DNA of 5,842 bases from Actinomycetes bacterium (GTDB taxonomy: Bacteria > Actinomycetota > Actinomycetes > Actinomycetales > Beutenbergiaceae). The notes under the pieces are model-generated. The model had not been told where the DNA came from, made no database searches, and was given only the letters and a program-made list of their open reading frames with translations. The position numbers were made by a program, and so were the translations under genes. Positions 2,076 through 4,742 of this stretch are shown one piece after another; positions within the stretch are counted from its first letter, which is position 1; the number at the start of each line of letters is the position of its first letter. The DNA lies in NCBI GenBank assembly GCA_021793935.1, contig JAJYRV010000143.1:1-5842 (forward strand), in the 5' to 3' direction.

Positions 2076-2104
2076 TTGACACATCAAGTATTGCGCCATA
2101 TCTT
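2076..2104 (+). promoter_or_regulatory. SigA-type promoter for the SAM-IV leader transcript
   Basis: A perfect -35 box TTGACA (2076-2081), a 17-nt spacer and a -10 box TATCTT (2099-2104) make this the strongest promoter match in the window. The -35 begins one base after the methyltransferase stop codon is complete (2072-2074). The predicted transcription start, about 2110-2112, falls at the 5' edge of the riboswitch aptamer, and this agreement supports both calls. Confidence 0.85.
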
Positions 2105-2110
2105 CAACAT

Positions 2111-2215
2111 TAGGTCCAGAGCGCCAGCATTAAGCCCCGGCTAGCTGGCCGGCAACCCTCCAGTTGCGGTGGGGTGCCCCGGGTGACGACCAGGCCCATG
2201 AGGCAAGCGCTACGA
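2111..2215 (+). promoter_or_regulatory. SAM-IV riboswitch aptamer
   Basis: The segment matches the remembered consensus of SAM-IV riboswitches, which bind S-adenosylmethionine in actinobacterial mRNAs. Conserved blocks are AAGCCCCGGC (2132-2141), GCTGGCCGGCAACCCTCC (2144-2161), GCGGTGGGGTGCCCCGGGTGA (2166-2186), GACCAGG (2188-2194) and GGCAAGCGC (2202-2210). Pairings that can be drawn: P1 GGTC (2113-2116) with GACC (2188-2191); P2 GCCAGC (2123-2128) with GCTGGC (2144-2149); and AGCGC (2120-2124) with GCGCT (2207-2211), consistent with a long-range contact. The hairpin that mycobacterial examples carry between GACCAGG and GGCAAGCGC is reduced here to seven bases (2195-2201). The aptamer starts at the predicted transcription start and lies upstream of a leader ORF and a flavin monooxygenase gene. 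High SAM would be expected to lower expression. Confidence 0.93.
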
Positions 2216-2228
2216 GGCCACCCGGCCC

Positions 2229-2241
2229 GAGGAAGAGGAAG
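2229..2241 (+). promoter_or_regulatory. Ribosome-binding site of the leader ORF
   Basis: The purine run GAGGAAGAGGAAG contains GAGGAAG (2229-2235), 8 nt before the ATG at 2244. It decides the leader ORF start: a real translation signal where no conventional gene follows. A small GGCC-ACCC-GGCC hairpin (2216-2227) sits directly before it, between the aptamer and the site, and could link the two. Confidence 0.65.
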
Positions 2242-2243
2242 AC

Positions 2244-2333
2244 ATGTTGCACCATCAGGCACACTCGCAGGTTTCAACCCGCCCAGTGCTGAGCATGATG
2301 ATGATGCGCATGTGTTGGTGCATGGCTGCCTAA
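2244..2333 (+). CDS. Met/Cys-rich leader peptide, 29 codons (putative attenuator ORF)
   Basis: The ORF begins MLHHQAHSQVSTRPVLS and ends MMMMRMCWCMAA, then stops with TAA at 2331-2333. The last 12 codons hold six Met and two Cys plus a Trp, four Met in a row: the pattern of a leader whose ribosome stalls when charged tRNA for those amino acids runs short. A good ribosome-binding site (2229-2235) precedes the ATG. The ORF is between a SAM-IV aptamer and a gene likely to act in sulfur metabolism, which fits methionine/cysteine sensing. The stop codon lies inside a possible hairpin (2317-2339), so a ribosome stalled on the Met/Cys codons would cover its 5' arm. No similarity to a known protein is expected or claimed; the peptide itself probably has no job after synthesis. 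The chief alternative is chance expansion of an ATG triplet repeat in untranslated leader RNA. Confidence 0.7.
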   Translation: MLHHQAHSQVSTRPVLSMMMMRMCWCMAA

Positions 2334-2435
2334 GCCACCTCGACCGGCATCTCGGGCTGACGTAATCGCCCCTTCGACTGCCACCCTCGGGAAGCGGCTC
2401 GCACACCCCAGGTCGCGTGACACGAACCTGCGTGC
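2317..2435 (+). other. Possible hairpins of the leader (switch region)
   Basis: Three candidate stems follow the Met/Cys codons. The first uses GGCT (2324-2327) and AGCC (2333-2336), with GGT (2317-2319) and ACC (2337-2339) able to extend it across the leader stop codon. The second is GCCCCTTC (2368-2375) with GAAGCGGC (2391-2398), seven pairs and one C-C mismatch. The third is CAGGT (2409-2413) with ACCTG (2426-2430), extended by GCAC (2401-2404) with GTGC (2432-2435). None is followed by a U-tract, so a classic intrinsic terminator is not evident. Such stems are easy to draw in GC-rich RNA and no energies were computed. Confidence 0.35.
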
Positions 2436-2447
2436 CTGCCCGCCTGA

Positions 2448-2475
2448 GTTACTTTCGCACACGATTGAAAGTGGC
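2448..2475 (+). promoter_or_regulatory. Hairpin sequestering the monooxygenase ribosome-binding site
   Basis: Bases 2448-2457 (GTTACTTTCG) pair without interruption with 2466-2475 (TGAAAGTGGC): ten pairs, three of them G-U, around an 8-nt loop. The 3' arm contains the only ribosome-binding-site candidate of the gene starting at 2483, GAAAGTGG (2467-2474), placed 8 nt before the ATG. Closing the stem would block initiation, so this looks like the output element of the leader. Confidence 0.6.
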
Positions 2476-2482
2476 ATGACCA

Positions 2483-3427
2483 ATGGCTTCAATTTTCCCT
2501 ACCCGCACCTCTGTACTCGCTGTCGATCTCACCTCCACCGGCGCACCCACCGCGTGGCAACGAGACCGTGATCCCGAAACGGAATCCTTCATCATGGCCC
2601 GCCTCGCCGGCTTGGCGAAGCTTCTCGACCACGCGGGCACCGACCTCATCGTGACCGGCGGGGAGTTCCGCCTCGGCGGGCGCCGCCGCCGTGACGACTA
2701 CTTGGATGGCGCGCTCGCCCTCTCCCGGCTTGGCCAACACACCGGCTCAGTCCGACTTGCCGCGAGCATCCCGCTCGCCGGGAACACCCCCACCGGGGTT
2801 GCTTCCGCCGTCGCCTCCGTCCACAAATCGACGGCGTGCCGTGGGGGATGGCAGGTGGACGCCCCCACCCCCGAACCGGCCCGGGGGGTTGAGGCGGTGA
2901 CCTCGACCTGGAAGGGCCGCGCTGACGCACCCGCCGTCGTCGTTAACGTTCGCAACGACGTCGACGTCGAGATCGCCGCTGCCCGCGCTACCGTCGCCCG
3001 CCTCCGGGTGGACACGGTGGAAGACGCGCGGAACCTGCGCAGCGCGATCCGCTCCGCCGCCACCGACTGGGGGCGTAACCCAGACGATGTCGCGGTGCTC
3101 GTGGATGTGCACTCCGTGCTCGCAGGAGAATCACAAGAGGCAGCGAACCGCGCGGCCTTCATCGCCGATCTCGGCGGCGAGCAACCCGCCGGCCTACTGC
3201 AGCACGCCGGCACGGTTTCGACGTTCGCGACCGTGTGGCAGAACTGGGTCCGAGCCGGAGCGGCCGACGGCTTCACGATCCTTCCGGGTTCAATCCCCAC
3301 GGACGTTCTCGCCATCGCCACCGGGCTCCTTCCGGAGCTCGATCGCCGCGGACTGCACGTGAAGGCCGACGCGCCCGCGGCCGCCCCGGAACGGGTACGC
3401 ACGCGCCGTCAGGCAATCGCTGCGTAG
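2483..3427 (+). CDS. LLM-class (luciferase-like) flavin-dependent monooxygenase, short form
   Basis: A 314-residue protein. The C-terminal part, [20 protein letters not shown] (251-270) followed by [11 protein letters not shown] (282-292), is typical of the NtaA/SnaA/DszA branch of luciferase-like monooxygenases, which use reduced flavin and O2. Weaker family echoes are [18 protein letters not shown] (43-60), [20 protein letters not shown] (79-98) and [11 protein letters not shown] (118-128), the place of the usual GRxGWNxVT motif. NtaA-type enzymes usually exceed 400 residues, so inner loops are missing, and several normally conserved positions differ; activity is not assured. An in-frame TGA at 2477-2479 fixes the start at 2483. 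The SAM-IV and Met/Cys leader suggests a role in organosulfur use or methionine-linked metabolism; this is inference. The reduced-flavin supplier is not in the window. proA starts 16 nt later. Confidence 0.8.
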
Positions 3428-3430
3428 CCA

Positions 3431-3436
3431 TACAAT
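3431..3436 (+). promoter_or_regulatory. -10 box (TACAAT) for a leaderless proA transcript
   Basis: TACAAT matches TANNNT and ends 7 nt before the proA ATG at 3444, so transcription would start at or next to the start codon. The nearby AAGGG (3437-3441) is only 2 nt from the ATG, too close to act as a ribosome-binding site. No clear -35 box. If used, this promoter frees proA from the sulfur-responsive leader upstream. Confidence 0.55.
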
Positions 3437-3443
3437 AAGGGTC

Positions 3444-4742
3444 ATGACTACCTCCGCTTTTTCTGACGCATCCGCGCCCACCGAGGTTGCGCGGGCGATC
3501 ACCGCGATCGCTAACGACGCCAAAAGCGCCTCTCGGCATTTAGCCCGGCTGACGCGCGCCGAGAAGGACGCTGCGCTGCAGGCGATGGCCTCCGCCCTGC
3601 GGGGCGAGGCCGAGCAGATCCTCGCCGCGAACGCACGTGACGTCCAGCGGGAGCGCGCCGGTGGAATGAGTGAGGCGATGATCGACCGCCTCACTCTCAC
3701 CGAGGAACGCATCGCCGGTATCGCCGATGCGCTGGGCGACCTCGCGGGGTTGCCCGACCCAATCGGGCAGGTCGTTCACGGTGAGCGTCTGCCGAACGGG
3801 TTGCGGGTGCGTCAGTTGCGGGTACCGATGGGCGTCGTCGGGATGATCTACGAAGCGCGGCCCAACGTTACCGTGGATGCCGCAGGGATCGCCGTGAAGT
3901 CCGGCAACGCCGTCATCCTGCGCGGCGGGAGCGCCGCCGAAGAAAGCAACATCGCCATCGTCGGTGTGCTCCAAGATGCGCTCGCCGGGGAGGGGCTCCC
4001 GCGGCACGCGGTGCAATCCATCGATGCCCACGGGCGCGAAGGGGCCACGGAGCTCATGCGGGCCCGCGGGCTCGTCGACGTGCTTATTCCCCGCGGGGGA
4101 GCGGGTCTCATCGAGACGGTGGTGACGAACTCCCTCGTCCCGGTCATCGAAACCGGGGTGGGGAACGTCCACCTATATATCGACGCATCGGCGGACCTCG
4201 ACCGAGCGGTGGAGATCGCCCTCAACGCCAAAGTGCAACGGCCCTCGGTGTGCAACGCTGCAGAGACCTTGCTTGTCCACGAGGAGATCGCGAAACAGTT
4301 CTTGCCCCGCGTGTACAACGCGCTCCGCGCCGAAGGGGTCACGCTCCACGCGGACGAGGCGGCAGCTGCGTTTGCTGCCGATGGCGAAGTGACGCTCGCG
4401 ACGGAGGCGGATTGGCACACCGAATACCTCGCCCTTGACCTCGCGGTGAAGATCGTTGCTGACCTCGATGAGGCGATCGACCACATCCGGACATACTCCT
4501 CCGGGCACACCGAGTCGATCGTCACGCGAGACACGACGGCGGCGCACAGGTTCAGCACCGAGCTGGATTCGGCGACGATCATGGTGAACGCTTCCACGCG
4601 GTTCACCGACGGCGGGGAGCTCGGGCTCGGCGCGGAGATCGGCATCTCGACCCAGAAGCTTCACGCCCGCGGGCCGATGGGGCTCGAGGCGCTCACGACG
4701 ACGAGCTGGATCGTTGAAGGTGACGGACATATCCGCCCGTAA
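3444..4742 (+). CDS. proA: Gamma-glutamyl phosphate reductase (proline biosynthesis)
   Basis: ProA reduces gamma-glutamyl phosphate with NADPH to glutamate-5-semialdehyde, the second step of proline synthesis, in the cytosol. The 432-residue protein is full length and matches the family throughout. Visible are [20 protein letters not shown] (130-149) and [11 protein letters not shown] (159-169) in the cofactor domain, and [13 protein letters not shown] (211-223). The catalytic cysteine C270 lies in [15 protein letters not shown] (263-277). Near the C-terminus are [10 protein letters not shown] (352-361) and [20 protein letters not shown] (394-413). It begins 16 nt after the monooxygenase gene but seems to have its own leaderless promoter in that gap. 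In many actinobacteria proB lies directly upstream of proA; here that place is taken by the monooxygenase. The order proA, small membrane gene, nadD downstream is common in the phylum. Confidence 0.98.

Follow-up and report, generated by a model that had tools for sequence, protein, structure and literature searches.

A SAM-IV aptamer followed by a methionine- and cysteine-rich leader ORF upstream of an LLM gene in Actinomycetes

Organization of the locus

The DNA analyzed here (the window) is a stretch of 5,842 nucleotides from an Actinomycetes bacterium of the Beutenbergiaceae (GCA_021793935.1, contig JAJYRV010000143.1). Upstream of the gene for a short FMN-dependent monooxygenase-like protein (LLM gene), it contains a leader in which a SAM-IV aptamer is followed by a small ORF rich in methionine and cysteine codons (Table 1). 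This arrangement, with a promoter ahead of the aptamer and a ribosome-binding site in front of a 29-codon ORF, had been proposed in a sequence-only reading and is confirmed and extended by the present data.

Table 1. Features of the leader and the adjacent genes in the window
Feature	Position	Strand	Remarks
Sigma-70-type promoter TTGACA-17-TATCTT	2076..2104	+	predicted start just upstream of aptamer
SAM-IV aptamer (RF00634)	2113..2215	+	96.8 bits, full-length model match (1-116)
Short hairpin GGCC-ACCC-GGCC, between aptamer and RBS of leader ORF	2216..2227	+	sequence
Shine-Dalgarno (SD) of leader ORF, purine-rich, GAGGAAGAGGAAGAC	2229..2242	+	sequence
Leader ORF MLHHQAHSQVSTRPVLSMMMMRMCWCMAA	2244..2333	+	29 codons; Met/Cys codons 2295-2324
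Conserved RNA module (stop-codon hairpin, H1, H2)	2324..2438	+	model R2, covariation; no Rfam match
Hairpin H1, GGCA...UGCC with inner CGGGC...GCCCC	2346..2382	+	both-side changes in 3/7 pairs
Hairpin H2, 7-nt loop [A/C]GUGACA (2416-2422), lower stem GCAC/GUGC	2401..2435	+	loop-anchored pair counts
Hairpin ACTTTC...GAAAGT over RBS of next gene	2451..2472	+	predicted fold
LLM gene, short FMN-dependent monooxygenase-like protein	2483..3427	+	314 aa, 1 Cys, 1 internal Met
proA, 16 nt downstream of LLM gene	3444..4742	+	co-transcription possible, own promoter also possible

The predicted promoter comprises 10 of 12 consensus matches and was the sole promoter-like site in 1990-2520, with shuffled sequences giving an average of 0.1. 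At the corresponding position, the 30 LLM leaders compared below showed a mean of 9.2 of 12 matches compared to 6.0 in composition shuffles, two of them being weak with only 5 and 7 matches. By cmscan, SAM-IV was determined as the only confident RNA family in the window, scoring above the gathering score of 38 (E 1.9e-17). The aptamer would be expected to bind SAM and to lower expression. The short hairpin between the aptamer and the leader ORF was rejected as a special feature, since such hairpins are common behind SAM-IV: the best stem behind the aptamer comprises at least 4 bp at 175 of the 191 other SAM-IV loci.

The leader ORF ends in SMMMMRMCWCMAA, with Met or Cys making up 8 of the last 16 residues. 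The LLM gene starts 149 nt beyond it. A short ORF with its own ribosome-binding site thus lies upstream of a gene whose link to sulfur is based on homology. Mycobacterial polycysteine attenuators are reportedly leaderless, going by the title of a 2020 study by Canestrari. The window ORF is not leaderless: about 130 nt separate it from the predicted start of the transcript, and it is preceded by an SD. A search of NCBIfam with this ORF gave 0 families at E<=1, so that it does not fall into the putative leader peptide family NF042934.

Compared to the NtaA/DmoA FMN-dependent monooxygenases, the LLM protein showed a weak similarity of 62.6 bits, which is below the cut-off. When the window protein was combined with 24 relatives into a profile, the closest solved structures by sequence were YtnJ/MoxC, dimethyl-sulfide monooxygenase and DszA; judged by these similarities, the LLM gene resembles sulfur-scavenging enzymes. 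The closest LLM proteins range from 99% downwards; the named relatives originate from a Beutenbergiaceae bacterium (47%) and Ruania halotolerans (46%). At SAM-IV loci, the LLM proteins contain 0.08% Cys and 0.21% Met (29 loci, 9158 aligned residues), compared to 1.25% and 1.77% in Actinomycetaceae homologs without SAM-IV (5 loci, 1358 residues), and for ProA 0.59-0.70% Cys and 1.5-2.0% Met were determined. The loci L265-L268 were used only for this comparison. Since the LLM protein avoids the amino acids that its leader seems to monitor, its composition would fit a gene made under sulfur starvation, and the low sulfur content can be regarded as an independent hint of expression when sulfur runs out. 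ProA was also found in 15 of 29 LLM loci with 1.5 kb flanks, and proA may have a promoter of its own besides read-through from the LLM gene.

The leader ORF in related loci

For comparison, the LLM protein was searched in the 396 genomes of the order, 64 of which matched at E 1e-12. Direct searches of genome contigs with the LLM protein gave no relatives, and these were reached through proA loci and whole genomes. The best 30 loci of these 64 were used; the weaker matches were left out of the leader comparison. A SAM-IV aptamer was found upstream of the LLM gene in 29 of these best 30 loci (20/20 and 9/10), the exception being L129. All 29 relatives and the window contain an ORF of 25-34 codons with a Met/Cys-rich tail, starting 19-42 nt past the aptamer, where the starts were picked by the author among candidate frames and, due to the mechanical choice of the start codon, the distances are approximate. 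In the case of L123-L126, the ATG at +35 was chosen afterwards, although the GTG at +8 scored best. Examples of these ORFs are ATCVMCCCPMPA (L104), GACMCMCPCTKA (L102), SLMCCTPSACTCMR (L120), SMCMCGRPCMSV (L123) and RMCMCMSTCADRCCQR (L127). An SD-like site precedes the ORF in all 30 LLM leaders with a wider search pattern and in 27 of 30 with a narrower one.

As a measure for the tail, the sum of Met and Cys in the last 16 residues was determined for any ORF of 15-45 codons starting at most 260 nt behind the aptamer. A score of at least 4 was reached by 30/30 LLM-linked SAM-IV loci (29 relatives and the window; range 4-8) compared to 1/191 other SAM-IV loci, a set which includes other SAM-IV loci of the same genomes and, consisting of the best matches listed, leans to high scores. 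The single positive, L323, is a metY leader. In a smaller comparison set, 0/87 other SAM-IV loci reached 4 Met/Cys. Left out of the scoring were L184 (same site as L102) and L191 (241 bases), L205, L234, L252 and L258 were skipped as too short, and 25 repeat sites were merged. The 30 leaders are not independent, as 23 originate from one family of 24 genomes, 6 from outside this family and one is the window itself. Within this family, 23 genomes have the LLM gene, and the aptamer is present at all 23 loci. Relatives that keep the aptamer and lack a Met/Cys-rich ORF, which would speak against the sequence-only reading, were not observed: all 30 LLM-linked loci keep both.

Of the 849 codons of the leader ORFs, 108 encode Cys and 89 an internal Met (together 23%). 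Cysteine is encoded by TGT and TGC in equal numbers (54 each), compared to 1 TGT and 6 TGC in the five genes of the window. Among close ORFs of equal length, 12 pairs were compared, some of them with a sequence in common; 47 non-synonymous changes were counted compared to 7 synonymous ones, and the peptide as such is therefore without visible selection. Such divergence would be expected of a leader peptide whose function depends on a few particular codons, but it does not speak for translation. The pattern of ORF lengths was not used as evidence, the lengths being multiples of three by construction.

The missing purifying selection in close pairs would also agree with an untranslated ORF, in which the ATGTGC-type stretch would belong to an RNA fold and its Met/Cys coding would be incidental; the stretch indeed borders a structured module (see below). 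However, the enrichment is highest in the frame that is opened by the SD-preceded start, with a mean of 6.43 Met and Cys in the last 16 codons compared to 2.70 and 0.27 in the other frames, and clades of quite different nucleotide sequence (L120, L123, L127, L102) keep the Met/Cys codons. An untranslated ORF is therefore considered very improbable, and the leader ORF is presumably translated.

As a separate observation, the search alignments of L112 (G214) and L113 (G270) contain an in-frame TGA in the LLM gene; the aptamer and the leader ORF are present at both loci.

A conserved RNA module downstream of the ORF

Downstream of the Met/Cys codons, a hairpin at the stop codon, H1 and H2 were found in this order in Ruania-type relatives and in the window. 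For a structure of 25 pairs in 11 sequences, 86.9% of the cells were paired compared to 76.7% in shuffles and 32-49% in slid versions, with the structure being drawn from the same 11 sequences on which it was scored. Changes on both sides of a pair were observed in 29 cells compared to 9.2 in shuffles, a value reached by 0/500 shuffles, in which, as in all shuffle tests of this module, the relatedness among the sequences remains. Weaker measures were the number of pairs with both-side changes (8, reached by 10/500 shuffles) and the number of further pair types (15, reached by 104/500).

RNAalifold alone missed H2 because of gaps, and H2 was recounted with the loop as anchor. In 14 distinct sequences, the first four pairs of H2 were paired in 54 of 56 cells, which was reached by 0/5000 shuffles, and the lower stem was weaker with 56.8% of the cells. 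Two alignments with misplaced gaps (A4, A5) were left out of the counts. With a relaxed loop, H2 was detected in 21 of the 30 LLM leaders and is missing from 9, where a loop-like match without stem in L120 was excluded; with the strict loop and four pairs, it was found in 15/30 LLM leaders and 0/191 other SAM-IV loci.

The module in the window is detected at 41.6 bits by a covariance model built from seven sequences without the window (R2), with an E-value of 3.8e-7, or of 1.5e-5 in a search of 52 sources. This model also finds five unseen leaders (L106, L111, L113, L117, L118) and is weak or silent on other clades. With a further model (R1) and a cut-off of E 0.01, matches were obtained in 13 of the 396 genomes of the order, ten of which were in the model itself, with one site each and in all cases at an LLM leader. 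In Rfam, there was no match for the module in the window at E 1 and none in the relatives at the gathering score.

Since the H2 loop is nearly invariant while its stem covaries, a binding partner is suggested, and the loop may bind a protein or another RNA. The idea that the H2 loop pairs with the segment downstream of H1 was judged only by visual inspection and not retained.

Folding and termination

The "possible switching stems" of the sequence-only reading can be divided into two parts. While the conserved module behind the ORF is in agreement with stems at this place, no consistent refolding of H1 or H2 between the untranslated, stalled and terminating states was observed over 15 loci. 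The mean probability of H1 in 14 loci was 0.83 for the untranslated leader, 0.79 with a stalled ribosome and 0.83 once the ribosome had reached the stop codon; for H2, the respective values were 0.86, 0.72 and 0.78 (15 loci overall). In the window, H1 increased from 0.25 (untranslated) to 0.51 (stalled) and 0.87 (at the stop), and L102 showed the opposite direction with 0.73, 0.14 and 0.03.

The hairpin over the ribosome-binding site of the next gene, which had also been described from the sequence alone, is reproduced in the predicted fold, with an unpaired probability of 0.03-0.05 for the SD of the LLM gene in the window; 14 relatives showed a less buried SD (0.17-0.62). The mean exposure of this SD over 15 loci was unchanged by the ribosome position (0.37, 0.38 and 0.39), and an opening or closing of the SD by the ribosome was rejected due to its absence from these means. 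Intrinsic terminators were not detected in 1990-2520 (0 hits). Since there is neither a terminator nor a consistent refolding, a classical alternation of terminator and antiterminator is unsupported, and competing terminator structures as in a classical attenuator were not found.

The 110 nt behind the ORF comprise a C fraction of 0.44 and a G fraction of 0.31 (C/G 1.44), and C exceeds G in 30/30 LLM leaders. For comparison, the C/G ratio was 1.18 in the LLM coding region, 1.16 in the leader ORF and 1.00 in the aptamer. The C-rich stretch together with the missing intrinsic terminator weakly points to Rho. Since folding shows no general switch, the step downstream of stalling is the weakest part of the mechanism proposed below.

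The missing dependence of the fold on the ribosome position, together with the non-conserved body of the peptide, could also be explained by a simple relay. In this case, translation of the ORF itself would open the downstream RNA or block Rho, and the Met/Cys codons would slow down ribosomes under general sulfur stress without acting as a separate sensor. Against this stands the retention of the Met/Cys codons in 30/30 leaders while the rest of the peptide changes, as well as the recurrence of the same amino acids in the metY leaders described in the next section, and a relay is considered rather improbable.

Short Cys/Met ORFs at other SAM-IV loci

Shorter Cys ORFs upstream of metY fall outside the length range of 15-45 codons used above. 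Such ORFs, which start at +37 to +41 behind an SD-like site, are found for example in five metY leaders: MARSPMRCCCQ (L237), MRASLHPLTRCCCR (L243), MCCCRMN (L303), MCIRRMCCR (L233) and MTCRMPF (L141). With a criterion for this slot that was set after seeing examples (start at +22 to +49 behind an SD, and a minimum of one Cys and two Cys/Met in the last 12 residues), 28/30 LLM, 12/66 metY and 1/125 other SAM-IV loci were positive, compared to 0.3% per locus for shuffled slots. Where metY lies at most 110 nt from the aptamer (45 of the 66 loci), none was positive, whereas 12 of the 21 loci with metY further away were; the 110-nt cut was chosen from the list, and the metY starts, extrapolated from tblastn, are approximate. 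Because of this distribution (0/45 compared to 12/21), the slot behind SAM-IV seems to be occupied by the gene at some loci and by a Cys/Met leader ORF at others. At 102 of 185 other SAM-IV loci, the first long ORF with an SD starts at most 60 nt behind the aptamer, the start being chosen mechanically and the distance therefore approximate.

A second peptide family behind SAM-IV was observed in two Terrabacter loci (L082, L087; SAM-IV at 1501-1613). Their ORFs at +31 and +33 end in HVDL(S/L)RVSSALCR and exceed the cut-off of the NCBIfam "putative leader peptide" family NF042934.

Proposed mechanism

The sequence-only reading had interpreted the leader as a two-input device, with the aptamer reporting SAM and the ORF reporting charged Met- and Cys-tRNA. 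This interpretation is supported by the comparison, as the Met/Cys tail is kept in 30/30 leaders, the rest of the peptide diverges and the sulfur context fits. We consider it fairly probable that the two inputs act in series, i.e. that SAM-IV gates a Met/Cys attenuator ORF and the gene is on only if SAM and charged Met/Cys-tRNA are both low. The target of SAM-IV would be the small ORF in the slot behind the aptamer and not the enzyme gene: since the leader ORF occupies a slot in which SAM-IV often has its target gene, we infer that SAM controls its translation. With SAM bound, the leader ORF would stay untranslated and the LLM gene off. At low SAM, ribosomes would enter the leader ORF. If Met-tRNA and Cys-tRNA are charged, the ribosomes would reach the stop codon and the gene would remain off; if these tRNAs are scarce, the ribosomes would be held up at the Met/Cys codons and the LLM gene would be transcribed. 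Most likely, the stalled ribosome would counteract Rho, which would otherwise terminate transcription in the C-rich region downstream of the ORF.

Alternatively, both regulators could work in parallel, with SAM-IV acting on transcript elongation or decay and the peptide acting by codon stalling, so that the gene would answer either input (OR-like). Leader ORFs of the Met/Cys type without an aptamer do exist, as seen for L129 and reported for metL of S. lividans (PMC8079986), and the peptide can therefore work alone. However, the position of the ORF at +19 to +42, within the frequent slot of SAM-IV target genes, favors an action of SAM on ORF translation, and the parallel arrangement appears unlikely, although less so than the relay.

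If the serial arrangement holds true, the leader would be a natural case of a metabolite riboswitch governing the access to a ribosome-based amino acid sensor, and the cell could distinguish SAM shortage from a shortage of methionine or cysteine. Beyond the LLM leaders, the data point to tiny ORFs behind SAM-IV, also at metY, as a class that has received little attention. On balance, we lean slightly towards the wider view that SAM-IV in Actinomycetes has two modes, one with the enzyme gene in the slot and one with a Cys/Met leader ORF there and the gene displaced. The second mode would be a riboswitch-gated attenuator that evolved at LLM genes and metY and computes "NOT SAM AND uncharged Met/Cys-tRNA" without a T-box. 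To this, the LLM form would add the H1/H2 module with its nearly fixed GUGACA loop, which is maybe protein- or RNA-binding.

Comparison with known systems

The sequence-only reading knew of no described SAM-IV leader of this build, and among the open-licence papers listed in the literature searches no description of a SAM-IV leader with a Met/Cys ORF was found. The individual parts are of known kinds (leader peptides, SAM-I/T-box tandems). The leader shares with SAM-IV (RF00634) the sequence and structure of the aptamer, the sulfur-gene context and the 3' hairpin followed by an SD-preceded start; it differs in that the first ORF behind the aptamer is a Met/Cys-rich leader peptide instead of an enzyme gene.

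The predicted logic, on only with low SAM and uncharged Met-tRNA, corresponds to that of the SAM-I/T-box(Met) tandems, of which two examples upstream of metX and metY are described (PMC9481103). In these tandems, the tRNA is sensed by direct binding to the T-box, whereas the window leader would use the codons of its ORF and Cys in addition to Met. A T-box RNA was not detected in the window at E<=1, and the leader is thus not such a tandem; if the mechanism is true, it would be the Actinomycetes counterpart. In Xanthomonas, a SAM-I riboswitch likewise reads SAM and the tRNA state in one met leader, but there the uncharged initiator tRNA is bound directly by the expression platform, and the abstract mentions no leader peptide (PMC7270179).

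Among the leader peptides, metL of S. lividans (MSTTSDRTPATEATTTPGARCMCRRMCAF) upstream of metNIQ is similar in its 29 codons, its Met/Cys tail, its position beside a methionine-related operon and the lack of a typical terminator in the account given of it (PMC8079986). In contrast to the window ORF, metL is reported as leaderless, so that no aptamer precedes it, and belongs to another operon, and in the original work the emphasis lies on its methionine and threonine residues (PMC8079986). The mycobacterial Cys leader ORFs are also short, with Cys codons near the stop and, as far as the text on these leaders states, no conserved terminator, and Rho is a weak prediction there (PMC1262725). They are located at cys operons (PMC1262725), whereas the ORF in the window is SD-led, combines Met with Cys and lies behind an aptamer. 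The NCBIfam families NF042934, NF042936 and NF042933 are likewise short attenuator-type peptides, but matched neither the window ORF nor the six relatives tried. Compared to known attenuators, the cluster of codons for the presumed regulating amino acids near the ORF end is present in all 30 leaders (4-8 Met/Cys), and the charging of Met- and Cys-tRNA would be expected to affect expression of the LLM gene.

Further observations at LLM and proA loci

At L129 (about 1198-1359), the LLM-like gene without a SAM-IV match is preceded by a Cys-rich ORF (...CAAARCCCQTCS), which by eye looks leaderless behind a TTGACC/AAGACT promoter. At L003, an Actinomycetaceae locus whose LLM gene lacks SAM-IV, an upstream ORF with an SD in front of it is located at 4223-4312 and ends in NACRQRRMCS. 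This locus and L002 (just before 4245), whose LLM gene also has no SAM-IV, share the upstream stretch GTCTTGCTATTYGGAC, which gave no Rfam match at the gathering score. In the window, the sequence CATACAATAAGGGTCATG (3428-3446), located just upstream of proA, resembles by eye a -10 box with a leaderless start.
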